From Candidatus Dormiibacterota bacterium (lineage in GTDB: Bacteria > Acidobacteriota > Polarisedimenticolia > Gp22-AA2), in the NCBI GenBank assembly GCA_035635555.1, contig DASQAT010000006.1, forward strand, positions 62,001 through 126,000: a stretch of 64,000 bases of DNA. Reading direction: 5' to 3'. Of the stretch, positions 5,580 through 21,330 are shown one piece after another. How positions within the stretch are numbered: the first letter of the stretch is position 1; every line of letters starts with the position of its first letter. The translations under genes and the position numbers were made by a program. The notes under the pieces are model-generated. The model did no database searches, had not been told where the DNA came from, and saw only the letters and a program-made list of their open reading frames with translations.

Positions 5580-6074
5580 ATGAAGGACATCCTGATCGGT
5601 GAATCGCTGATCGGCGACGGCAACGAAGTCGCCCACATCGATCTGCTGATCGGGCCGAAGAACGGCCCGGTCGGCACGGCCTTCGCCAACGCCCTCGTCA
5701 ACCAGAACCAGGGACACACGGCCCTCCTGGCGGTCCTGGAGCCGAACCTGCTCACGAAGCCCGCGACGATGATGATGAACAAGGTCACCATCAAGGGGGC
5801 GAACCAGGCGGTGCTGATGTTCGGCCCGGCGCAGGCCGCGGTCGCCAAGGCGGTCGCCGACTCGGTGGCGGACAACATCATCCCGCAGGCCGAGGCGGAA
5901 AACCTGGTGGTCATCGTCGGCGTCTTCATCCACTGGGAGGCCTCCGACAAGAAGAAGATCTACGACTTCAACTACCGGGCCACCAAGGAGTCGATCGCCC
6001 GCGCCATGAAGGGGGAGCCCGCCGTCAAGGCGGTCCTCGCGGGGAAGGACAAGGCCAAGCACCCGTTCGCCTGA
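5580..6074 (+). CDS. fae: formaldehyde-activating enzyme
   Basis: A 164-residue Fae, close to the usual ~170. It catalyses condensation of formaldehyde with H4MPT to methylene-H4MPT. Family signatures are clear: [21 protein letters not shown] at the N-terminus, containing the conserved active-site His, then [31 protein letters not shown] and [16 protein letters not shown]. Codon use is strongly biased to C/G-ending codons with an AAGGAGG ribosome site, suggesting high expression. It sits first in a run fae-mtdB-ATP-grasp and is divergent from mfnB across a 146-base intergenic region that must hold promoters for both. Confidence 0.96.
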
Positions 6075-6080
6075 GACCCG

Positions 6081-6977
6081 ATGGAGAGAAAGCGCCTCCT
6101 GTACCTCGTCTCGTCGGATCCGCGCGTCAGTCCGTTCGACATCAACATGGCCTACGACGCCGGCTTCGACGCGGTCGTTCCCTACCCCTCCGTCGACGTC
6201 GGGATGGTGCCCGGTCTCGTGCAGGACATCATGTTCTCGCGCGGGGCCAAGGGGGCGCGCTTCTCGTCCGTCTTCTTCTCCGGCTCGAGCCTGGCCGCCT
6301 CGGAGGCGATGCTCAAGGCGGCGCGAGCGAGCCTGTTCCCGCCGTTTCTTCTGGGGCTCATGATCGATCCGAAGGGCGCCTACACGACGGCGGCGGCGCT
6401 CGTGGCCCGCGTCGCCGGGCTCGCCAGGACGCGCGGTCCGGGCGAACTCCCGGGCGTCAGGGTCGTGGTGCTCGCCGGCACGGGCGGCGTCGGCCGCGCC
6501 GCCGCGGCGCTGCTCGCCCGCGCAGGCGCCACGGTCATTCTCACGTCGAGGGGCCGGGAATCGGCGTCGGCCGCGGCGCACGAGATCGGCGAGCTGTTCG
6601 GTGCCGCGGTCGAGCCGCGCGCGGCACCGGCCGAGGCCGACCGGGCGGCCCTGGCGGCGGAGTCGGACATCGTCCTCGCGACCGGCGCCGCCGGCGTGCC
6701 GCTTCTTTCGAGGAAGACGATCGAGACGCTCAAGGGTCCCAAGGTGCTCGCCGACGTCAACGCCGTCCCGCCGCACGGCCTGGACGGAGTGCGGCCGCAG
6801 GACGACGGAGTCGAGGTCGCGCCGCGTGTCCTGGCGATCGGCGCCATGACGGTCGGTGAGACGAAGTTCAAGGTCGAGTCGACCCTGCTCAAGGATCTCC
6901 TGACGGCGGAGGGGCCGCCCGTCATCGACCTGGAGGCGGCGCGGCGGCGGGCGATCGATCTCCTGGCCTCGACATAG
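6081..6977 (+). CDS. mtdB: NAD(P)-dependent methylene-H4MPT dehydrogenase
   Basis: A 298-residue MtdA/MtdB family protein that oxidises methylene-H4MPT to methenyl-H4MPT. The N-terminal domain has LLYLVSSDPRVSPFDINMAYDAGFD and a YPSVDVGMV motif typical of methylotroph MtdB. The Rossmann domain shows VVVLAGTGGVGRAAAALLA followed by SRGRES, and a late ADVNAVPPHG. MtdA and MtdB differ in folate versus H4MPT use; placement between fae and the H4MPT genes argues for MtdB. The start is six bases after the fae stop, so the two are almost certainly cotranscribed. Confidence 0.92.
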   Translation: MERKRLLYLVSSDPRVSPFDINMAYDAGFDAVVPYPSVDVGMVPGLVQDIMFSRGAKGARFSSVFFSGSSLAASEAMLKAARASLFPPFLLGLMIDPKGAYTTAAALVARVAGLARTRGPGELPGVRVVVLAGTGGVGRAAAALLARAGATVILTSRGRESASAAAHEIGELFGAAVEPRAAPAEADRAALAAESDIVLATGAAGVPLLSRKTIETLKGPKVLADVNAVPPHGLDGVRPQDDGVEVAPRVLAIGAMTVGETKFKVESTLLKDLLTAEGPPVIDLEAARRRAIDLLAST

Positions 6978-7105
6978 GGCGCCCCCTCCTTCTTCTCGGC
7001 GTCAGCGTCCGGGCGCTCGCGGCGTCGGCGGTCGCGAGCCGTCTCGCCGCACGCCGGTTCCCCGATGGTTTCCTCGCCCTCGATTACTTCGGCGACGCGG
7101 ATCTG

Positions 7106-11538: not shown

Positions 11539-12092
11539 TCCTGGAGACGATCGTCTCGACGATCGATCGGGAGGGCCGCCCGAACTTCGCACCGATGGGG
11601 ATCACGCTCGAGGGGGACGCGGTCGTGCTGCGGCCGTTCAGCACCGCGCTGACCTGGAAGAACCTGCAGGAGGTGGAGGAGGGCGTCGTCAACTTCACCG
11701 ACAACGTCGTGCTGTTCGCGCGCTGCGCCGTGGGCCCCTTCCTGCCGCCGCACCGCGACGCCCGGAAGGTCCGCGGTGCCGTGCTCGACGACGCCTGCTT
11801 CTGGAAGGAGTTCGTCGTGGAGTCGAGGGATCTGGCCGGGGAGCGGGGGCGCTTCTCCGGCCGCGTGGTGTCCGAGGGGCGCCTGCGCGACTTCGTCGGG
11901 TTCAACCGCGCCCGCCACGCGGTGATCGAGGCGACGATCCTGGCGACCCGGCTGCACCTCCTCGGCCGGGATCGGGTGCTGGAGGAGATGTCACGGCTGC
12001 GACCGCTCGTCGACAAGACGGCCGGCCCCGCCGAGAGCGAGGCGTTCGAGTTCCTCATCGAGCACGCGCGGAGGTGGAACGATGTCCGTTGA
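11535..12092 (+). CDS. DUF447 family protein (flavin-reductase-like split barrel)
   Basis: A 185-residue protein that begins ILETIVSTIDREGRPNFAPMGI, the strand pattern of FMN-binding split-barrel proteins, and continues RPFSTALTWKNLQ, VNFTDNVVLFARCA and a C-terminal helical region with FNRARHAVIEATILATRLHLL. This matches DUF447, found in methanogens and H4MPT-using bacteria next to methanopterin genes. No reaction is assigned; a redox or flavin-dependent role in cofactor synthesis is inferred. GTG 11535 overlaps the folB stop and its 3' end overlaps mptG, so the three genes are coupled. Confidence 0.8.
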   Translation: MILETIVSTIDREGRPNFAPMGITLEGDAVVLRPFSTALTWKNLQEVEEGVVNFTDNVVLFARCAVGPFLPPHRDARKVRGAVLDDACFWKEFVVESRDLAGERGRFSGRVVSEGRLRDFVGFNRARHAVIEATILATRLHLLGRDRVLEEMSRLRPLVDKTAGPAESEAFEFLIEHARRWNDVR

Positions 12093-13029
12093 CGTCACGA
12101 GCCAGGCGCGGCTGCACTTCGGATTTCTCGATCTCTCGGGGGAGCAGGGGAGGCGGTTCGGCGGCATGGGGGTGTCGATCTCGGAGCCCCGCCTGCGCCT
12201 GAGGATGGAGCCGGCGAAGAAGCTCTCCGTCGAAGGGGACCAGGCGGAACGGGTCGAGATCCTGGCCGCGCGCTTCTTCGAAGCGGTCGATCTGCGCCCC
12301 GAGGCGCGCATCAAGGTCGTGCAGGCGATCCCCGAGCACGTCGGGCTCGGGTCCGGCACGCAGCTGGCGCTGGCGGTGGCCGCGGGGCTGAGCCGGCTTC
12401 GCCGCCTGGATCTGTCGTCCGAGGAGCTGTGCGCGCTGATGAACCGCGCCCGCCGCTCCGGCGTCGGCTACCACCTGTTCCAGAAGGGCGGTTTCGTCAT
12501 CGAGGGCGGGCACGCGGTCGCGGACCACCGTCTCGGCGAAGCGCCTCCGCTCCTCCTGCGTCACGACTTTCCGGAGGATTGGCGCGTGGTCGTGGCGGTG
12601 CCCAGGCCCAAGGAGACGATCAGCGGCGAGGCGGAGGAGGCGGCCTTCTCGCGCCTCAGCCAGCCGTCCGATCAGCTGGCCGATCAGATCTCGCGCATCG
12701 TCCTGATGCGACTGCTGCCGGCGCTCGTCGAGCGCGACCTCGACGCGTTCGGCGCCGCATTGACGCAGGCGCAGGAGCTGGTCGGGTCGTGCTTCGCGGC
12801 GGTGCAGAACGGTCTGTTCCATCCCGACGCGGCCCCCCTCATCGACCGCCTGAAGGAGGCCGGCGCCCGCGGCGTCGGCCAGTCCTCCTGGGGCCCGGCC
12901 GTGTACGCCTTCGCGGCGGACGAAAAGGAGGAGGGCCGGCTCCTCGAGGTCGCCCGGCGCGCCACGCCGGACGGGTCCGCGTTCGCGGTCCGCGGCTGGA
13001 ACCGCGGAGCGGCGCTCGTGTCGTCCTGA
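12082..13029 (+). CDS. mptG: beta-ribofuranosylaminobenzene 5'-phosphate synthase
   Basis: A 315-residue GHMP-kinase-fold enzyme that couples 4-hydroxy/aminobenzoate with PRPP, the first committed step of H4MPT synthesis. Visible signatures are ARLHFGFLDLSG at the N-terminus, VSISEPRLRLR, the glycine-rich HVGLGSGTQLALAVAAGL loop, RSGVGYHLFQKGGFVIEGG and a C-terminal GVGQSSWGPAVYAF. Length and motifs match the family. ATG 12082 overlaps the DUF447 3' end. The convergent CitG-like gene reads 191 bases antisense into its 3' end. Confidence 0.9.
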   Translation: MSVDVTSQARLHFGFLDLSGEQGRRFGGMGVSISEPRLRLRMEPAKKLSVEGDQAERVEILAARFFEAVDLRPEARIKVVQAIPEHVGLGSGTQLALAVAAGLSRLRRLDLSSEELCALMNRARRSGVGYHLFQKGGFVIEGGHAVADHRLGEAPPLLLRHDFPEDWRVVVAVPRPKETISGEAEEAAFSRLSQPSDQLADQISRIVLMRLLPALVERDLDAFGAALTQAQELVGSCFAAVQNGLFHPDAAPLIDRLKEAGARGVGQSSWGPAVYAFAADEKEEGRLLEVARRATPDGSAFAVRGWNRGAALVSS

Positions 13030-13882
13030 CTCCATCGTCGAGCAGCCACAGGAAGATCGCCCCGACCGTCAGGTCGGCGGTGGCCCCCGGGTTGAGGGGC
13101 GGGCGCTTCGCGCGCAGCCGCCGGTCCAGTCTCTCCGACAGCGACCGGCCGCGCTCCGTCAGGAAGCCGCCCGCCCGGAGCGCCTGGCGCGCCAGCCGCG
13201 CCACCCGCTCCGCCGCCGCGGCGCCGTGCCGCCTGGCCACCAGGGTGTCGGGACCGGCGGCGAGCAGCGTCAGGTAGGTCTGGGCGATCGCCAGGGGCAA
13301 CGGGACGTGCCGGTCGCGCAGACGGTGCAGGGTCGGGAGCCCGGTGTCGAAGGTCGCCGCGAACCCGGTCGCGTACTCGCGCGCGACGGCGTCCCTGTCC
13401 TGCGCGAGGCGCATGGTCTCCAGGAGTGAAACCGTGGGCGTTGTGTGCACGTCCTGCCGTCCGACCCGCCCGAGCCCGCCCGGCCCCGCGATGCGAATGG
13501 CGCGGTAGGCGTCCCGCGCGTCCCGCACGTCGAGATCGAGAAGGACGCGCCGCAGCCTCTCGCGGATCGTGCCGCCGGTCCTGCGGGCGGCGCGCGCCAG
13601 GGGCGCCAGCAGGAGAATGATGCCGAGGTTGGTGTTCGTCCGCACGTGCCGGCGCGTCGCCCGCACCGCTTCGAGGATCAGGCGCCCGACACGATCTCCT
13701 CCGAACCGGGAGAAGGCCGGACCGATGGCATAGGCGCTGAGGACGAAGTCGCGGTAGGTGAGCCCCGGAAGGTCGTGCCCGCGGCTGACGTTCCCCGGCT
13801 TCGGGGCCACGACCTCCAGGAGGCACGCGGTCTGGGCCGCGGCGGCGATGATCCCGGCGGCGCGGCGCTTCGTCCGGCTCAT
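12839..13882 (-). CDS. triphosphoribosyl-dephospho-CoA synthase (CitG)-like protein with antisense-derived tail
   Basis: The first ~285 residues are a CitG/MdcB-type protein (COG1767). Motifs are EVVAPKPGNVSRGHDL, LSAYAIGPAF, TNTNLGIILLLAPLA, RTHTTP-like VHTTPTVSLLE, and NPGATADLTVGAIFLWLL. CitG-like proteins of unknown role recur in H4MPT clusters of methylotrophs. The domain ends at about 13028, exactly where mptG ends on the other strand. The reading frame then runs 62 more codons antisense through mptG, giving an Arg/Pro-rich tail with no family resemblance. It is either a real extension after stop-codon loss or an annotation trap. ATG 13882 overlaps the stop of the RimK-like gene. Confidence 0.75.
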   Translation of the reverse strand: MSRTKRRAAGIIAAAAQTACLLEVVAPKPGNVSRGHDLPGLTYRDFVLSAYAIGPAFSRFGGDRVGRLILEAVRATRRHVRTNTNLGIILLLAPLARAARRTGGTIRERLRRVLLDLDVRDARDAYRAIRIAGPGGLGRVGRQDVHTTPTVSLLETMRLAQDRDAVAREYATGFAATFDTGLPTLHRLRDRHVPLPLAIAQTYLTLLAAGPDTLVARRHGAAAAERVARLARQALRAGGFLTERGRSLSERLDRRLRAKRPPLNPGATADLTVGAIFLWLLDDGVRTTRAPLRGSSRGPRTRTRPAWRAGRPRGAGPPPFRPPRRRTRPGPRRTGRRRGRRPPSGGR

Positions 13883-14811
13883 CGCTCCAGGACGGCCGGA
13901 AGGGCGCGCCGGGCCGCGATGCGATCCACGACGAGGGACGCGACCTCGGAGGCGAGGTCGAGGGTCGTCGTCCGCTGCAGGGCGCTCCAGCCGGGAATCC
14001 CGTTCACCTCCGCGACCAGCCGTCCGCCGACGTCGCTCTCCAGCAGATCGACGCCGGCGTAATCGGCCCCCACGGCAACCGCGGCGCGCACGGCCAGATC
14101 CTCCTCCTCGGGGCTCGGGCGGTGAGGGCGCATCACGGCGCCCGCGGCCACGTTCGTCTTCCAGCCGTCCCCCGTGCGCCGCGCCGCGGCCACCACCCGG
14201 CCTCCCACGACCAGAAGACGCAGGTCGGAGCGCCCGTGCGGCACGAACTCCTGGACGTAGAACACGGCGCGCTGCATCTGCAGCGCGCGGAACACGCGGT
14301 ACGCGAGATCCTCGTCCGTGATCCGAACGATGCCGCGGCCGCCCGAGCCCAAAAGCGGCTTGACCAGCACATCCCCGAACCGGCGGAACGCGGCGAGCGC
14401 GTCATCGAAGTTCTCCGCCGCCACGGTCCCGGGCGTGGGGATCCCGGCGCGGGCGAGGAGCTGCGAAGTCCAGTGCTTGTCGACGGTCCGTTCGATCGCC
14501 CGGGGCGGGTTGACGACCGGGAGCCCGGCGTCGTGGACCGCGTGCAGGGCGTCGACGCGGAACACGATCTGATCGAGCGAGCCCTCGGGCAGGAACCGGA
14601 CGAGAAGCGCATCGAGCGAGTCGAGGTCCGCGTCCCCGGAGGCCACCCCCGTCCCTTCCCGGACCGATCCACCGGGACCGACTCGTCCCGCGAGTCGCGT
14701 CGCCGGGAGGGCGACCGCATCGCAGCCCAGGCGGTCCAGGGCCTCCGACAGCCGCGCGATGTGCCAGCGGTCCCCAGTCGCCAGGATGCCGGCGCGCGGG
14801 CGATCCCTCAT
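13879..14811 (-). CDS. RimK/MptN-like ATP-grasp ligase
   Basis: A 310-residue RimK-family ATP-grasp enzyme. It shows LDALLVRFLPEGS, ERTVDKHWTSQLLARAGIPTP, VLVKPLLGSGGRGIVRI (phosphate loop), YVQEFVPHGRSDLRLLVVGG and LLVAEVNGIPGWSALQ-type metal ligands near the end. In archaea the MptN homologue adds glutamate to tetrahydrosarcinapterin, and RimK-like genes (orf22 type) sit beside mch in methylotrophs. A glutamylating or related step on H4MPT or MFR is inferred. It lies between mch and the CitG-like gene with ATGA overlaps at both ends, so all three form one minus-strand operon. Confidence 0.82.
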   Translation of the reverse strand: MRDRPRAGILATGDRWHIARLSEALDRLGCDAVALPATRLAGRVGPGGSVREGTGVASGDADLDSLDALLVRFLPEGSLDQIVFRVDALHAVHDAGLPVVNPPRAIERTVDKHWTSQLLARAGIPTPGTVAAENFDDALAAFRRFGDVLVKPLLGSGGRGIVRITDEDLAYRVFRALQMQRAVFYVQEFVPHGRSDLRLLVVGGRVVAAARRTGDGWKTNVAAGAVMRPHRPSPEEEDLAVRAAVAVGADYAGVDLLESDVGGRLVAEVNGIPGWSALQRTTTLDLASEVASLVVDRIAARRALPAVLER

Positions 14812-15773
14812 GCGTCCATCCCGAACGACCGCCGCAGCATCGCCTCGTCGGTGCGGCCGCTCGAATACACCCGCCCGGTCGCGGCATTGATCAGGGTGAC
14901 CTGAGCCGGACTGAAGAGCAGCGGGTCGATCGCGTAGAAATCGCCGCCGCGCTCCTTGAACAGGTCGTGGAACAGACGGCCGTAGTCCTTCGAGGACGAG
15001 GACGGCACGCGGTCGATGAGCCGCTCGGCGGCCTCGTCCGTGGTCCGCACCCAAAGCGCCACGCGCGCCCCGTAGAGCACGGCGTCGTTGGTGCGCCCGA
15101 TGGCGCGCACGGGATCGGGGACACCCGGCGCCACGGGACAGGTCCCCGACCCCGCCACGATCGTCGTCAGGTCGAACCCGAGCTCGTGGAGCTTGTGCAG
15201 GGCGGTCTCGACCGAACGCGCGGCGATCTGGATGCAACCCGCCAGGCTGCCGGTCGACGCCGCGATCAGCGTGAGCCGGTCCGGAGGCAGCCCGCAGCGC
15301 GCCGCGACGTGATCGGCCACGTCGGCGCCCGGCAGCATCGAGCTCTCCAGGAGGAGAACCGTGCTGTCGGAGCGCGACTTGAGGGGAAACTTCTCGAACA
15401 GCGCCTCGCCGGCCGAGAGGGACCGCGCGGGCCCGGACCCCATCGCGAAAAACCTGTTCACCTGGATCTTCCACCCGGCGTACTGCGAGGCCATGCAGGC
15501 GACAAGGGGGTGATCGATCGCCACCCGCGCCTCGCAGATCGTCGCTTCGCCCAGGGGCGACGGTCCGACCGTGACCCGTCCGAGGCCGCCCATGCAGCAC
15601 TCGGCGTACAGCCGTCCCGCCTCGATCGAGCCTCCGGCCTGCACGCCGGCGTCGATAAGACGCGTGCCGTTCGCGAGACGTTGGACGTCGACGCCGAGCG
15701 CCGTGGAGGGATCGGCCAGGGCATCCGCCAGGCGCGCCGCTCCAGCATGCATACTCCTGAGAATCTCGTTCAC
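14808..15773 (-). CDS. mch: methenyl-H4MPT cyclohydrolase
   Basis: A 321-residue Mch, the standard length. It hydrolyses methenyl-H4MPT to N5-formyl-H4MPT. Clear signatures: AGGSIEAGRLYAECCMGGLG, HPLVACMASQYAGWKI, FFAMGSGPARSL, IAASTGSLAGCIQIAARSVETALHKL, and PSSSSKDYGRLFHDLF followed by DPLLFSPAQVTL. The GTG start at 15773 gives the family N-terminus; an ATG seven codons later is an alternative but its ribosome site would be too close. It opens the minus-strand operon mch-rimK-like-citG-like and is divergent from fhcD. Confidence 0.95.
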   Translation of the reverse strand: MNEILRSMHAGAARLADALADPSTALGVDVQRLANGTRLIDAGVQAGGSIEAGRLYAECCMGGLGRVTVGPSPLGEATICEARVAIDHPLVACMASQYAGWKIQVNRFFAMGSGPARSLSAGEALFEKFPLKSRSDSTVLLLESSMLPGADVADHVAARCGLPPDRLTLIAASTGSLAGCIQIAARSVETALHKLHELGFDLTTIVAGSGTCPVAPGVPDPVRAIGRTNDAVLYGARVALWVRTTDEAAERLIDRVPSSSSKDYGRLFHDLFKERGGDFYAIDPLLFSPAQVTLINAATGRVYSSGRTDEAMLRRSFGMDA

Positions 15774-15918: not shown

Positions 15919-16845
15919 ATGAGCGCGGAGGCGCGGAGGATGGAACGGCGCGGGGTGCGGATCGGCGACACCTTCGCCGAAGCCTTCGACATGCAGGCGG
16001 CGCGCGTGCTGATCACCGCGCGCTCCCCGGCCTGGGGGCTGACGGCCGCCCGGGCCATGACCGGGTTCGCCACCTCCGTCATCGGCTGCAAGGTCGAGGC
16101 CGGCATCGAGGCCGAGCTGACCGCGGAGCAGACGCCGGACGGCCGCCCCGGGGTGAGCGTGCTGCTCTTCGGCTTCGACGCCGAAGGGCTCGCCAAGCGG
16201 CTGGTTGAGCGAGTCGGCCAGACGATCCTCACGTGCCCGACCACGGCCTGCTTCGACGGTCTGCCGCATGCGGACAAGCGGGTCGTCGTGGGGGGCGTGC
16301 TGCGTCACTTCGGCGACCGCTACCAGTCGAGCAAGCTCCTGGAGGGGAACCGCTACTGGCGGATCCCGGTGATGGAGGGGGAGTTCCTCGTGCAGGAGAC
16401 CTTCGGCGTTCAGCAGGCCATAGGAGGCGGCAACTTCCTGATCCTGGCCGAGGATGAGCGCGCCGCTCTGCAGGCGGCGGAGGCGGCCGTGGAGTCCATG
16501 CGGAGGGTCCGCGGCGTCGTTCTCCCGTTCCCCGGCGGGATCGTGCGCAGCGGCAGCAAAGTCGGCGCGAAGCGCTACAAGAACATGATCGCTTCCACCA
16601 ATGACGCCTACTGCCCGACGTTGCGCGCGCGGAAGGGGGTGAAGAGCGCTCTGCCGGAGGGCGTGAACTCGGTGCTCGAGATCGTGGTCAACGGCCTCGA
16701 GCGTGCGGCGATCGAGGAGGCGCTGCGCGCCGGCATCGACAGCGCGTGTCTCCCCGGCGTCGTCGAGATCTCGGCGGGGAACTACGGCGGCAAGCTCGGC
16801 AAACACCACTTCCCCCTGCACCCGCTCCTCGAGGCCGCCTCGTGA
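15919..16845 (+). CDS. fhcD: formylmethanofuran:H4MPT N-formyltransferase
   Basis: A 308-residue Ftr/FhcD protein that transfers the formyl group between methanofuran and H4MPT. Signatures: GVRIGDTFAEAFDMQAARVLITA, MTGFATSVIGCKVEAGIE, CPTTACFDGLP, FGDRYQSSKLLEGNRYWRIPVMEGEFLVQE and a C-terminal LPGVVEISAGNYGGKLGKHHFPLH. Length is normal and the conserved motifs are intact. A strong GAGGAGGAGG ribosome site precedes ATG 15919. It heads the plus-strand run fhcD-fwdD-(53 codons)-fwdB-fwdA-fwdC. Confidence 0.95.
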   Translation: MSAEARRMERRGVRIGDTFAEAFDMQAARVLITARSPAWGLTAARAMTGFATSVIGCKVEAGIEAELTAEQTPDGRPGVSVLLFGFDAEGLAKRLVERVGQTILTCPTTACFDGLPHADKRVVVGGVLRHFGDRYQSSKLLEGNRYWRIPVMEGEFLVQETFGVQQAIGGGNFLILAEDERAALQAAEAAVESMRRVRGVVLPFPGGIVRSGSKVGAKRYKNMIASTNDAYCPTLRARKGVKSALPEGVNSVLEIVVNGLERAAIEEALRAGIDSACLPGVVEISAGNYGGKLGKHHFPLHPLLEAAS

Positions 16846-16937: not shown

Positions 16938-17279
16938 ATGGAACACAAACGCTTCATCATGAACGCGGGCCGCACGACCAAGCAGGGCCAGCAGATCAAC
17001 GTCGGCAAGGATCACGCCGAATATAAGGCCATCGTGAGCACCCTGAACATGCATCCCGAGGACATGAAGGCGGCGGGGATTCAGTCCGGCGGCAGCGTGC
17101 GTGTCAGGTCCGATAACGGCGAGGCCATCTTCCGGTGCGTGGAAGGGAAGGTGCCGCAGGGCATGATCTTCGTCCCCTACGGACCGCCGACCTGCCATCT
17201 CATGGGGCAGGACACCGACGGAACCGGAATGCCGACCTCGAAGGGCTGGGAAGTCGAGGTCGAGCCGATCACGTCCTGA
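16938..17279 (+). CDS. fwdD: formylmethanofuran dehydrogenase subunit D (molybdopterin-dinucleotide-binding)
   Basis: A 113-residue protein beginning RFIMNAGRTTKQGQQINVGK, then LNMHPEDMKAAGI, GGSVRVRSDNGEAIFR and MIFVPYGPPTCHLMGQDTDGTGMPTSKG. This is the FwdD/FmdD fold, the C-terminal double-psi barrel of molybdopterin oxidoreductases encoded as a separate subunit, which packs on FwdB and holds the bis-pyranopterin cofactor. The GxPxxxLMGQDTDGTGMP motif is characteristic of archaeal FwdD. Its presence as a separate intact subunit supports a metal-containing catalytic FwdB-D pair. ATG 16938 lacks a strong ribosome site. Confidence 0.88.
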   Translation: MEHKRFIMNAGRTTKQGQQINVGKDHAEYKAIVSTLNMHPEDMKAAGIQSGGSVRVRSDNGEAIFRCVEGKVPQGMIFVPYGPPTCHLMGQDTDGTGMPTSKGWEVEVEPITS

Positions 17280-17305: not shown

Positions 17306-17467
17306 ATGGGTTCAACCAAGACTGGCGGACAACCCGGCACATCCTCGATCCTTCGGGTGCTCCCGGAGGATCCGGGAGACCACCCTCCGGCCTGGGAGCT
17401 CGTCGGCGCCGGAAGGTACATGCCTCGCCGCATCCGGGGGAGCTTCCCCGGCCGTGAGCTTGGCTGA
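17306..17467 (+). CDS. 53-residue conserved-looking small protein between fwdD and fwdB
   Basis: A small ORF with a good ribosome site (GAGAGGAAAGC before ATG 17306) fills most of the 244-base space between fwdD and fwdB. The product begins MGSTKTGGQPG and has an ordered-looking C-terminal half: WELVGAGRYMPRRIRGSFPG. The latter has no low-complexity character, unlike shadow frames here. I cannot name a family. Position inside the formylmethanofuran dehydrogenase operon suggests a small subunit, assembly factor or regulator of the complex; this is inference only. It is too short to be sure it is translated. Confidence 0.55.
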   Translation: MGSTKTGGQPGTSSILRVLPEDPGDHPPAWELVGAGRYMPRRIRGSFPGRELG

Positions 17468-17523
17468 ACGTTCGTCCTTCCGCCCGGTTCGGGCGGATCA
17501 GGACCGGGTGAACGGGAGAGGCG

Positions 17524-18855
17524 ATGAGTCTGAACGTCGTGAAGGATGCCACCTGCACGTTCTGCGGTTGTGTCTGTGACGACATCGAGCTGCACGCGGA
17601 GGGGGATCGAATCGTCAAGGCGCGGAACGCCTGCAGCCTCGGGGACGCCTGGTTCAAGAACCACACGGCCGAGCGTCTGTATCCCGATGCGCTGATCGAC
17701 GGGAAGCCGGCCACGGTCGACGCCGCCGTCGAAGCGGCCGCCGGATTCCTGCACGAGGCGAACATGCCGCTGGTGTACGGGCTGAGCAACATCACCTGCG
17801 AGGCCCAGCGGGAGGCCGTGGCCCTGACCGAGCTGATCGGGGGAGTGATCGACAGCCACACTTCGCTTTGACACGGCCCCACCGAGATAGCCGCCCAGTT
17901 GGGTGGCAAGGTCACTTGCACTCTGGGTGAAGTCAAGAACCGGGCGGATTTCATCGTCTACTGGGGGGGCAATCCGGCCGAGTGCCACCCGCGACATTTC
18001 ACCAAGTACACCCTGACCCAGAAGGGCAGGTTCGTGCCTGAAGGGCGCAAGGGCCGGACCATGGTGCTGGTGGATATCCGGGAAACACCCAGCGCCCGGG
18101 CGGCGGATCTCTTCCTCCAGATCCGCCCGGGCAAGGACTTCGAGGTCCTGACCACGCTGCGGGCTCTCGTCAAGAAGCAGCGGGTGGACGAGGAGGCCGC
18201 CGCCGGGACCGGGCTCACGCTGGACCAGCTCCAGGATCTGGTGGATCGGATGAAGCGCGCCCGATTCGGCGTCCTGTTCTTCGGGATGGGGGTCTCGATG
18301 ACCCGCGGGAAGCACATGAACTCGGCGGCGGTCCTGACCCTCGCGGCGGAGCTGAACGCCTTCACCAAGTTCGTGTGCATGCCGATGCGCGGTCACGGCA
18401 ACGTGACCGGGTCGGACATGGTCCTGCGCTGGTCGACCGGGTATCCGTTCGGAATCAACCTGTCCCGCGGCTACCCGCGGTTCAATCCGGGGGAGTTCTC
18501 GACCGTGGACCTGCTGGTCCGAGGGGACAACGACGCGGCCCTGATCCTCGGCGCCGATCCGGGTGCGACGATGCCCCAGCCGGGGATCGAGCATCTGGCC
18601 CGTATCCCGACCATCGTGCTCGATCCGAAGGTGACCCATACGAGTCGCCTGGCAAGGGTCCACATCACCACAGCGGCCACCGGGATCAGCGCGCCCGGGA
18701 CCGTGTACCGCATGGACGAGGTGCCCCTGCCGCTCCGCCCGGCCCTGAAGTCGCCGTATCCGACCGACGAGGAGGTCATAAGGCGCATCCGCCGAGCGGT
18801 GGCGGAGAAGCCCGCATGGACTCCTGCCGCGAACGCGGGGATGGCGATCAGCTGA
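17524..18855 (+). CDS. fwdB: formylmethanofuran dehydrogenase subunit B, selenocysteine-containing (in-frame UGA at codon 116)
   Basis: Reading through one UGA gives an uninterrupted 443-residue FwdB. The N-terminus carries a [4Fe-4S] ligand set: C11, C14, C18 (CTFCGCVC) and C37. Codon 116 (17869-17871) is UGA in the context THTSL-U-HGPTE (strictly SHTSL-U-HGP), the site of the tungsten/molybdenum-ligating Cys or Sec of archaeal FwdB (Cys118 in the Methanothermobacter enzyme, Sec in some methanogens, from memory). After it come LGEVKNRADFIVYWGGNP, HPRHF, VLVDIRETPSARAADLFLQIRPGKD and MRGHGNVTGSDMVLRWSTGYPFGIN, all typical of FwdB and in the same frame without indels. A SECIS-like hairpin lies 18 bases after the UGA. 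The subunit should reduce CO2 to formate, or oxidise formate, at a bis-pyranopterin metal site. Start ATG 17524 follows GGGAGAGGCG. Confidence 0.9.
17869..17871 (+). other. UGA codon predicted to encode selenocysteine in fwdB
   Basis: TGA in frame with fwdB, one base from a Cys codon and exactly at the catalytic metal-ligand position. The following His-Gly-Pro (U-HGP) is the same context as in selenocysteine formate dehydrogenases. Coding continues for 328 codons beyond it. Confidence 0.85.
17890..17907 (+). promoter_or_regulatory. bacterial SECIS-like stem-loop for fwdB
   Basis: GCCGCCC (17890-17896) pairs with GGGTGGC (17901-17907): seven base pairs including one G-U, around a tetraloop AGTT. 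The loop G is 26 bases past the UGA, and a G stands in the first two loop positions. Both agree with general rules for bacterial SECIS elements, which lie within the coding region and bind SelB. A short lower ACC/GGT helix (17881-17883 with 17910-17912) could extend it. Folding was judged by eye. Confidence 0.7.
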
Positions 18856-18895: not shown

Positions 18896-20521
18896 ATGCT
18901 GCGGATCACGGGAGGGAAGGTTTATGATCCCGCGAACAACATCGACGGTGTCGTCAAGGACGTCTGCATTGCCGAGGGGCGGGTTGTTCCCGAGGTCAAA
19001 GGCGGCCGCTCGGTCGACGCGAGCGGCATGGTGGTCCTCCCCGGCGGGGTCGACATCCACTCCCACATCGCCGGCGCCGCGCTCAACTTCGCCCGGGGAC
19101 TGACCCCGGAGAACTACCGCCGTGCCCTGACCTTCTCCCACACGCCGGAGCGTCGCGCCGGTCTCGGCGGCATCACTCCCACCACCTTCGCCACCGGGTA
19201 CTTGTATGCAGCGATGGGCTGGACGACCGTCAACGAGGCCGCGGTCCCGATTCTGTCCGCCCGGCACACCCACGAGGAGATGCACGACATACCGATCCTG
19301 GACAAGGCCTCCCTCGTGCTGATGGCCAACAATGAGATCGTGCTGGACCTTCTGGAGGCCGGGGAGGTCGAGCGCGCCAGGCACGTGGTGGCCTGGCTCC
19401 TCTGGGCGGCCAAGGCCTACGGCGTGAAGGGGGTCAACCCCGGGGGGGTCGTCGCCTGGAAGTCAGGCAAGAATGCGAACACGCTGTCCGACCCGGTCGA
19501 GGGGTACACACGTGTGACGCCGGCCGGGATCATCTCCAGCCTCGCCGGAATCGTCGATGACTTGCGATTGCCGCATCCGCTCCATCTCCATTGCAACAAC
19601 CTGGGCGTCCCCGGCAACGTGGCCACGACGATCGAGACTCTGAAGATCCTGGAAGGGCGGCGGTGCCACATGGCGCATCTGCAGTTCCACGCGTACGGTG
19701 GAGACGGCTGGGGCACGATCCGCTCCGAAGCGGCCACACTCGCCGAGCACTTCAACGCCCGGACGAATCTCACCGCCGATGCCGGAGCGATCCTGTTCGG
19801 CGACGCCATGACGATCACGGCCGACGGACCCTGGGAGCACGTGCTCTACAAGCTCACCGGCCGCAAGTGGGGCAACGTGGATGTGGAAAACGAGACCGGC
19901 TGCGGGATCGTCCCCTACACTTACAAGGAGCGCAGCCTGGTCAACGCCGTGCAGTGGGCCGCGGGGTTGGAGCTGCTTCTGCTCATCAGCGACCCCTGGC
20001 GGATCTTCCTGACCACGGACCACCCCAACGGGGCCTGCTTCTGGCGATACCCGGAGCTCATCGATCTCCTGATGCACGCGGACCGCCGCCGGGAATGCCT
20101 GAGCAGGCTGGCGCCCGCGGCGCTCAAGCGAATCGTCCTGCCGGACCTGGATCGGCAGTACACGCTGTCCGAGATCGCCATCATCACCTCCGCGGGCCCG
20201 GCGCGCGCCCTCGGCCTGGCGCGGAAGGGGCATCTGGGCGTGGGCGCAGACGCGGACGTCGTGCTCTACGATGAGATGCCGGGTGACCGCCCCCTGTTCG
20301 GGTCACCGCGCTACGTCATCAAGGGAGGCGAAATCGCGGTCGAGGACGGAGAGATCCGCCCCGTCAGCCAGGGGCGGGAGTTCATCGTGCGCCCCCGCTT
20401 CGATGAAGGGATCGAAGATTTCCTGAGGCCGCTCTTTCAGAAGGTCTACACGATCTCGTTCAACAACTATGCGGTGGAGATGGAGCGCCTGGCCGGCGCG
20501 GAGGTGCACGTCTGCGAGTGA
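18896..20521 (+). CDS. fwdA: formylmethanofuran dehydrogenase subunit A (amidohydrolase)
   Basis: A 541-residue amidohydrolase-fold subunit (FwdA/FhcA) with the binuclear metal site expected for formyl-methanofuran hydrolysis/formation. Ligands are H55 and H57 (GVDIHSHIAG), K178 (YGVKGVNPGG, the likely carboxylated Lys), H230/H232 (PLHLHCNNLG), H261/H265 (HMAHLQFHAYGG) and D375 (LTTDHPNG). It interconverts formate plus MFR with formyl-MFR, with formate delivered from or to FwdB. ATG 18896 follows the fwdB stop by 40 bases with no strong ribosome site. The 3' end overlaps fwdC. All ligands and length match the family. Confidence 0.94.
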   Translation: MLRITGGKVYDPANNIDGVVKDVCIAEGRVVPEVKGGRSVDASGMVVLPGGVDIHSHIAGAALNFARGLTPENYRRALTFSHTPERRAGLGGITPTTFATGYLYAAMGWTTVNEAAVPILSARHTHEEMHDIPILDKASLVLMANNEIVLDLLEAGEVERARHVVAWLLWAAKAYGVKGVNPGGVVAWKSGKNANTLSDPVEGYTRVTPAGIISSLAGIVDDLRLPHPLHLHCNNLGVPGNVATTIETLKILEGRRCHMAHLQFHAYGGDGWGTIRSEAATLAEHFNARTNLTADAGAILFGDAMTITADGPWEHVLYKLTGRKWGNVDVENETGCGIVPYTYKERSLVNAVQWAAGLELLLLISDPWRIFLTTDHPNGACFWRYPELIDLLMHADRRRECLSRLAPAALKRIVLPDLDRQYTLSEIAIITSAGPARALGLARKGHLGVGADADVVLYDEMPGDRPLFGSPRYVIKGGEIAVEDGEIRPVSQGREFIVRPRFDEGIEDFLRPLFQKVYTISFNNYAVEMERLAGAEVHVCE

Positions 20522-21330
20522 CCCTGACCCTCAAGGAGCAGCCCAAGGTCCCGCTCGAAGCCGAGACCCTCTCGCCGGATGTGCTGGCGCCCCTCGCGCC
20601 CGACGCGATCCGGGCCCTGCCGGTCCATCTGGGAAAGCGACGCCTGCGCGTGGACGATTTCTTCGAGGTCGAAGGGGCGGCCGGTGACGAGCTGGAGATC
20701 CGGGGTGATGCGGCCAGGGTGAAGTGGATCGGCCGCGGCATGACCCGTGGCCGCATCCGCATCCTCGGGAACGCAGGCATGCACCTGGGCGCCTACATGA
20801 AGGGAGGCAGCATCGAGGTGACGGGAAACACTTCGGACTGGCTCGGCGGCGAGATGTCCGGCGGCCTGATCCGTGTCCACGGGAACGCCGGCGGCCAGGT
20901 CGGGGCGGCCTATCGAGGAAGTGTCTCCGGGATGACGGGCGGGACGATCCTCATCGAGGGCTCGGCGGGGCTCGAGGTCGGGAGTCGCATGAGACGGGGA
21001 CTGATCGCGATGGGGGGGCAGGTCAGGGACTTCGCCGGCCTGCTGATGAAGGGCGGGACCATCGTCCTGCGAGGCGGGGCCGAGCTGCGGACCGGCGCCT
21101 GGATGTCCCGGGGCACGATCGTCTCGCTGGCTCCGATCCCGCTCCTGCCGACCTTCTCCTATTCGTGCACGTACACTCCCACGTTCCTGCGGCTGTATGC
21201 AAGGCACTTCCGGACGCTGGGGTTCACCATCCCGTGCGACGAGCAGGAAGGGGGCTATCGGCGTTACACAGGGGACGCCTCGATTCCGGGCAAGGGGGAG
21301 ATTCTCGTCTGGAAACCTCGCGCCTCCTGA
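20518..21330 (+). CDS. fwdC: formylmethanofuran dehydrogenase subunit C
   Basis: A 270-residue FwdC/FhcC protein homologous to the C-terminal domain of glutamate synthase. The middle (residues ~60-200) is a right-handed beta helix of repeated Gly-x-x-Gly-x-x-x-Gly units, such as IRGDAARVKWIGRGMTRG, IEVTGNTSDWLGGEMSGG and IHGNAGG-like VHGNAGGQVGAAYRG. It ends with SYSCTYTPTFLRLYARH. It scaffolds the FwdA-B complex. GTG 20518 overlaps the fwdA stop by four bases. No fwdF/fwdG polyferredoxin genes follow, so the electron partner of the complex is encoded elsewhere. Confidence 0.93.
   Translation: MTLTLKEQPKVPLEAETLSPDVLAPLAPDAIRALPVHLGKRRLRVDDFFEVEGAAGDELEIRGDAARVKWIGRGMTRGRIRILGNAGMHLGAYMKGGSIEVTGNTSDWLGGEMSGGLIRVHGNAGGQVGAAYRGSVSGMTGGTILIEGSAGLEVGSRMRRGLIAMGGQVRDFAGLLMKGGTIVLRGGAELRTGAWMSRGTIVSLAPIPLLPTFSYSCTYTPTFLRLYARHFRTLGFTIPCDEQEGGYRRYTGDASIPGKGEILVWKPRAS

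Follow-up and report, generated by a model that had tools for sequence, protein, structure and literature searches.

In FwdB, subunit B of formylmethanofuran dehydrogenase, one residue ligates the metal; it is a cysteine that can be replaced by selenocysteine (Sec), which is then visible as an internal stop codon (PMC11656701). FwdB is named among the selenoproteins of bacteria and archaea in a 2026 review. In searches of the literature on Sec-FwdB in Acidobacteria or Planctomycetes, a single paper was found to treat the subject (PMC4807772). Its selenoprotein section, published in 2016, describes a Sec-containing fmdB in the planctomycete Rhodopirellula sp. P2 and in two unclassified bacteria, with a Lake Washington fosmid as the closest match, and notes Cys and Gly homologues. 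The Fhc complex of methylotrophs is related through homologues of FwdA, FwdB, FwdC and Ftr, together with the tetrahydromethanopterin (H4MPT) pathway.

Here we analyse a stretch of 64,000 nucleotides (the window) from a Candidatus Dormiibacterota bacterium, placed by GTDB in the Acidobacteriota. Its fwdB is the same gene as that of Rhodopirellula sp. P2, with Sec and with the same fmdD-fmdB-fmdA-fmdC order as given in that selenoprotein section, where, supplements aside, an acidobacterial Sec form goes unmentioned. Since Sec-FmdB of planctomycetes was published in 2016, the Sec-FwdB described here is an acidobacterial addition to a known enzyme. The new part is a small linked gene, with its own in-frame TGA, that apparently represents a selenoprotein family; such short proteins, known only with Sec, could easily be overlooked.

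The in-frame TGA of fwdB

17524..18855, + strand: fwdB, formylmethanofuran dehydrogenase subunit B, predicted selenoprotein of 443 aa with Sec116 (TIGR03129)
17869..17871, + strand: predicted Sec-UGA codon of fwdB, codon 116, in the W/Mo ligand column (from conservation and column alignment)
17890..17907, + strand: predicted bacterial SECIS hairpin of fwdB, GCCGCCC-AGTT-GGGTGGC (from conserved position and loop codon bias)

When TGA is read as a residue, fwdB encodes one protein of 443 residues that contains just one internal TGA, in the context DSHTSL-U-HGPTE, and closes with its own terminal stop, TGA, at 18853-18855. The read-through protein matches TIGR03129 (FwdB) with 492.6 bits (curated cut-off 327.8) over residues 9-425; the frame is thus continuous on both sides of the TGA, as an earlier note on this DNA had claimed. 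The [4Fe-4S] cysteines at the N-terminus (C11, C14, C18 and C37) align with cysteines of archaeal FwdB. In an end-to-end alignment, codon 116 coincides with the archaeal Cys/Sec column on which the same note had placed it: 5t5i_B and 8rja_B have Cys there and 9sfi_Q has an X, which we read as Sec, and U116-HGP aligns with C-HGP (5t5i/8rja) and X-HGP (9sfi).

The GTDB genome collection was scanned with peptide patterns lacking the TGA motif, which yielded the 80 closest loci, labelled Acidobacteria or Planctomycetota bar a few with vague labels. TGA occupies the same fwdB codon, again within DSHTSL-U-HGPTE, in 80/80 of these loci, all from independent assemblies, and is likewise present in a genome of the same genus whose DNA is 83% identical (L105). 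The earlier note had named decay downstream of this codon in relatives as a sign against its reading, and none shows any. A sequencing error or the stop codon of a pseudogene is ruled out as the origin of the TGA by this conservation. Nothing beyond the multi-contig state of the host assembly (59 contigs) speaks for such an artefact, the frame is intact downstream and the Sec machinery is complete, so that we assign it a vanishingly small probability.

The host assembly (4.28 Mb, 99% complete, 59 contigs) contains a tRNA-Sec with a UCA anticodon and profile matches to SelB (333.7 bits), SelA (542 bits) and SelD (365.8 bits). In-frame TGA codons also occur in SelD, at the Sec site (SGG-U-AAK; L013:1501-2433, minus strand), and in an FdhA on another contig (NRT-U-HAPS; L166 = G000:C9:24000-37000, frame ~6500-7090, minus strand), which gives the genome at least two other UGA genes besides the small gene described below. 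Both the machinery and the further UGA-containing genes, to which the earlier note had looked for corroboration, are therefore found in the same genome. The Sec-FdhA is followed by NuoE/NuoF-like sequence and is probably an NAD-linked Sec formate dehydrogenase.

Directly downstream of the fwdB UGA lies a hairpin of 7 bp with the loop AGUU 25 nt after the codon, in agreement with the rules for bacterial SECIS elements (PMC13188914). It is found at the same position in 105/108 loci, some of which are second copies from the same genome. Half of the loop is made up by a Leu codon, which is TTG in 105/105, compared with a TTG share of 16.8% among other fwdB Leu codons. The fold energy of this stretch in the window is unremarkable relative to shuffles (z -0.6), and the case for the fwdB SECIS accordingly rests on conservation. 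Synonymous shuffling within alignment columns was uninformative because codons there are almost fixed, and the bias of the Leu loop codon was used instead. The ligand column, the TGA in every relative, the machinery and the hairpin all support the Sec insertion proposed in the earlier note, and on this comparative evidence the fwdB TGA almost certainly encodes selenocysteine.

A tree built from 57 proteins groups the 26 Sec forms from bacteria in one clade with 100/100 support, apart from the bacterial Cys forms and from three archaeal rows; the Sec-type enzyme thereby falls in a single clade that spans Acidobacteriota and Planctomycetota. The rows closest to the FwdB of the window identify this DNA as acidobacterial. 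Bacterial Cys-FwdB of the D-B-A type is 54-62% identical to the FwdB of the window. The archaeal FwdB/FwuB proteins with Sec or Cys (9sfi, 5t5i, 8rja) belong to the same subunit family, with the same ligand column and with FwdA and FwdD as partners; the bacterial gene differs from them in carrying a bacterial-type SECIS within the gene and in the separate position of its clade. In plasmids, the FwdB relatives among the matches listed were all distant, below 30% identity.

The fwd operon and its predicted chemistry

16938..17279, + strand: fwdD, molybdopterin-dinucleotide-binding subunit (PF01568, E 1e-13; NF042908 FwdD, E 1.2e-23; start codon uncertain)
18896..20521, + strand: fwdA, amidohydrolase subunit (TIGR03121, 662 bits; motifs kept)
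20518..21330, + strand: fwdC, beta-helix subunit (TIGR03122, 265 bits)
15919..16845, + strand: ftr/fhcD, formylmethanofuran:H4MPT formyltransferase (TIGR03119, 423 bits)
14808..15773, - strand: mch, methenyl-H4MPT cyclohydrolase (TIGR03120, 376 bits)
5592..6068 (G000:C6:67592-68068), + strand: fae, formaldehyde-activating enzyme (TIGR03126, 255.6 bits)
6132..6371 (G000:C6:68132-68371), + strand: mtdB/mtdC-like methylene-H4MPT dehydrogenase, a match to the N-terminal domain only, in a 300 aa frame (PF09176, 91 bits)

FwdB is encoded together with the further subunits of the complex: FwdD, which carries a pterin-binding domain, FwdA with its metal site, and FwdC. The motifs HSHIAG, YGVKxVNPGG, HLHCN and LTTDHPNG, which we take to hold the metal ligands of FwdA, are common to this protein and archaeal FwdA (aligned to 8rja_A / 9sw6_I). 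Judged by its sequence, the FwdD-B-A-C enzyme looks competent. UGA116 would be read as selenocysteine by SelB and Sec-tRNA with the help of the SECIS hairpin directly downstream. By homology, Sec116 would then be the protein ligand of a W/Mo bis-pterin centre bound jointly by FwdB and FwdD. This centre would interconvert CO2 and formate; FwdA, its metal site kept, would do the same for formate and the (methano)furan-bound formyl group, and FwdC would connect the two sites. We infer metal ligation, catalysis and direction from these resemblances. The likely use of the enzyme is the oxidation of C1 units to CO2 with no release of formate, and the reverse direction is possible; the presence of fae, mtd, mch and ftr around the operon speaks for formaldehyde or formyl oxidation no less than for CO2 fixation. 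In a bacterial enzyme whose metal is bound by Sec, oxidation or formation of the formyl group would take place within a single complex, as opposed to the hydrolase route of methylotrophs.

The earlier note had set this gene against the B subunit of Fhc as a catalytically competent type, and the contrast holds in the sequences: FhcB-like relatives have A, E, G or V, or gaps, at the ligand column, have lost the HGP motif and have no fwdD within 1.5 kb, whereas the FwdB of the window has the Sec codon. The enzyme could nevertheless act only as a formyl hydrolase like Fhc, its Sec site a relic. The Fae-Mtd-Mch-Ftr neighbours do resemble the methylotroph set, the separate Sec-FdhA could oxidise free formate, and no FwdF/FwdG electron-module family, a point of difference from the archaeal systems, was found among the genes conserved around the 80 relatives. 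Against a relic stands the retention by the clade of Sec, the SECIS, the Cys cluster motif and FwdD, where the FhcB-like forms have neither ligand nor adjacent fwdD. We thus regard a hydrolase-only enzyme as improbable, and favour a formylmethanofuran dehydrogenase with Sec as metal ligand.

The H4MPT cluster also contains CitG-like (triphosphoribosyl-dephospho-CoA synthase-like) and MptN-like glutamate ligase genes (12842-13882 and 13882-14889, both on the - strand) and an RFAP synthase gene at 12082-13029.

A small UGA-containing gene between fwdD and fwdB

17306..17527, + strand: predicted small selenoprotein gene, 73 aa with Sec54, between fwdD and fwdB (conserved ORF)
17465..17467, + strand: predicted Sec-UGA codon of the small selenoprotein (TGA in 82/82 loci)
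17479..17497, + strand: predicted bacterial SECIS hairpin of the small gene, TCCGCCC-GGTTC-GGGCGGA (from covariation and fold)

A second in-frame TGA, absent from the earlier note, lies 404 bases upstream of that of fwdB, in a small ORF within the fwdD-fwdB interval, which is conserved in DNA alignment. The start codon of the ORF is a prediction, with a Shine-Dalgarno-like GGGAGAGGA, and its terminal TGA overlaps the ATG of fwdB (ATGA). The encoded protein is basic, 73 aa long here, with one Sec in the C-terminal third and no conserved Cys. The consensus near the codon reads W-E-x-[IVL]-x-x-G-R-[FY]-M-P-R-R-[IV]-R-G-S-x-x-G-R-x-L-G-U-[TAS]-F-x-x-P.

In 82/82 loci, a divergent form in L104 among them, TGA stands at the internal site, and the terminal stops of 81 of the ORFs are mixed (TGA 38, TAA 30, TAG 13). 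The Phe after the internal TGA is invariant (82/82) with both of its codons in use (TTC 50, TTT 32). Downstream of the TGA, pN/pS is 0.48 in frame, as against 1.25 and 1.78 in the other frames; upstream it is 0.28. By these measures there is protein-level selection in frame beyond the TGA.

The hairpin of the small gene has 7 bp and a loop, GGUUC, 18 nt after the UGA, again in agreement with the bacterial SECIS rules (PMC13188914). Across loci the loop is mostly [GA]GUYC and lies 18 or 21 nt past the UGA in nearly all. Paired cells in the stem number 461/486, compared with at most 425 in 1000 column shuffles, and most pairs are lost when the partner is displaced by one or two positions. Compensatory CG/TA changes are seen at pair 3 (CG 34, TA 42, TG 4) and pair 6 (CG 41, TA 18), and the fold of the hairpin has a z of -2.4 against shuffles.

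TGA is common as a stop codon in these genomes, closing 38 of the 81 ORFs, and the small ORF might therefore end at the internal TGA, with the hairpin as a terminator or other RNA element and the open frame beyond it due to chance. This is very improbable given that the internal site is TGA in every locus, that purifying selection continues in frame past the codon and that the loop [GA]GUYC sits at a fixed distance, as in bacterial SECIS elements; the TGA conservation, the covariation and the in-frame pN/pS led us to reject a terminator. The UGA of the small gene would instead be recoded in the same way as that of fwdB. We have high confidence in the combined interpretation, in which UGA is recoded in both fwdB and the small gene and the enzyme is of the type outlined above.

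Profiles from Pfam and from NCBIfam 20 gave no family above noise for 45 members of the small protein, PDB sequences gave no match, and a search of viral contigs returned no relative. Among the 119 selenoprotein families and subfamilies of PMC13188914, compared by short motifs only, no entry evidently fits. The 788 genomes sampled yielded no Cys form; weak, stop-free profile matches in six genomes were judged on inspection to be chance. The known small bacterial selenoproteins (PMC13188914, NCBIfam) are likewise short, with a single Sec in the C-terminal third and a SECIS after the UGA, but the present protein differs from them in having no NCBIfam, Pfam or PDB match and no Cys homologue among those found. 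By its sequence, then, the small gene looks like a new, Sec-only selenoprotein family with no Cys counterpart. It also appears to be undescribed: the selenoprotein section of PMC4807772, supplements aside, mentions no small UGA gene between fmdD and fmdB. An AlphaFold model has a pLDDT of 62 and contains only a beta-hairpin at residues 30-40, which fits, as weak evidence, a peptide that may fold on a partner.

Linkage of the small gene to Sec-type FwdB

The distribution of the small gene was examined in the 788 genomes, 396 from the phylum of the window and 392 from the Planctomycetota, each phylum sampled evenly. In the former, 13/396 genomes have an FwdB homologue (5 TGA, 4 Cys, 4 FhcB-like); in the latter 44/392 do, 10 of them with TGA, and the other planctomycete FwdB proteins examined have Cys, Gly, Ser or a lost site. 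The small gene is present in 15/15 genomes with Sec-FwdB and in 0/42 with only other forms (Cys, FhcB-like and so on). Strong profile matches to the small protein fall in exactly the 5 acidobacterial and exactly the 10 planctomycete Sec-FwdB genomes, and each match has TGA within its aligned frame; a divergent one additionally crosses a TAG that precedes the conserved core. The Fisher value of 4.5e-14 for this linkage is nominal, as the genomes share ancestry, which makes the true significance smaller, and some of them helped to build the profile. In the seven genomes behind the chosen loci the small gene was found in 7/7, including two in which the fwdB contig ends too early to show the locus.

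Most Cys-type loci in which both genes were seen have a fwdD-fwdB gap of -7 to 68 nt, which leaves no room for the small ORF, and the one Cys-type locus with a gap of 361 nt gave no match to the small protein. Among operons for the same subunits, the small gene thus accompanies the Sec type and is missing from the Cys type, which points to a selenium-specific accessory role. We lean towards such a role for the small protein in the Sec-type enzyme, its function being deduced from linkage. The narrower proposal, that the family exists only in the Sec form and is dedicated to the Sec-type enzyme, as its maturase, protector or redox partner, while the otherwise similar Cys type does without it, we regard as evenly balanced. 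The protein might help to mature or protect the Sec-ligated metal centre, or might itself be a small subunit or redox partner. With a protein that accompanies the selenoenzyme and is missing beside the Cys form, it becomes testable what a Sec-ligated W/Mo centre requires beyond the needs of a Cys-ligated one.

The small ORF might alternatively serve mainly as a regulatory leader, in which ribosomes sense selenium at the UGA, and read-through together with the ATGA overlap controls translation of fwdB; the 24 conserved residues before the UGA would then act inside the ribosome exit tunnel. The conserved core of the protein does end exactly at the UGA, and the small ORF usually adjoins fwdB, its stop overlapping or near that gene with a gap of -20 to 170 nt in most loci. 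On the other hand, the residues after the UGA are under selection, as the invariant Phe illustrates, Sec is already required for translation of fwdB itself, and in six loci (L024, L042, L037, L039, L071 and L073) genes or 0.4-1.4 kb separate the small ORF from fwdB. We therefore consider a leader unlikely, if slightly less so than a hydrolase-only enzyme, and prefer an accessory protein.

In two of these six loci the insertion between the small gene and fwdB is a HicB-like gene (L024:6624-6997, L042:866-1241). In two others the Sec-fwdB is separated from the small gene by an additional copy of fwdB (L071:5607-6997, L073:5535-6997), a duplicate with Thr at the Sec column (TSL-T-HGT), from which Sec has been lost. 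Cys, Gly, Ser and ligand-less forms of FwdB are all represented among the planctomycete loci L136-L142 and L153-L165. Some genomes have two FwdB copies, for example the Sec form with another (G396, G667 and G708) or two copies that both lack the stop (G692).
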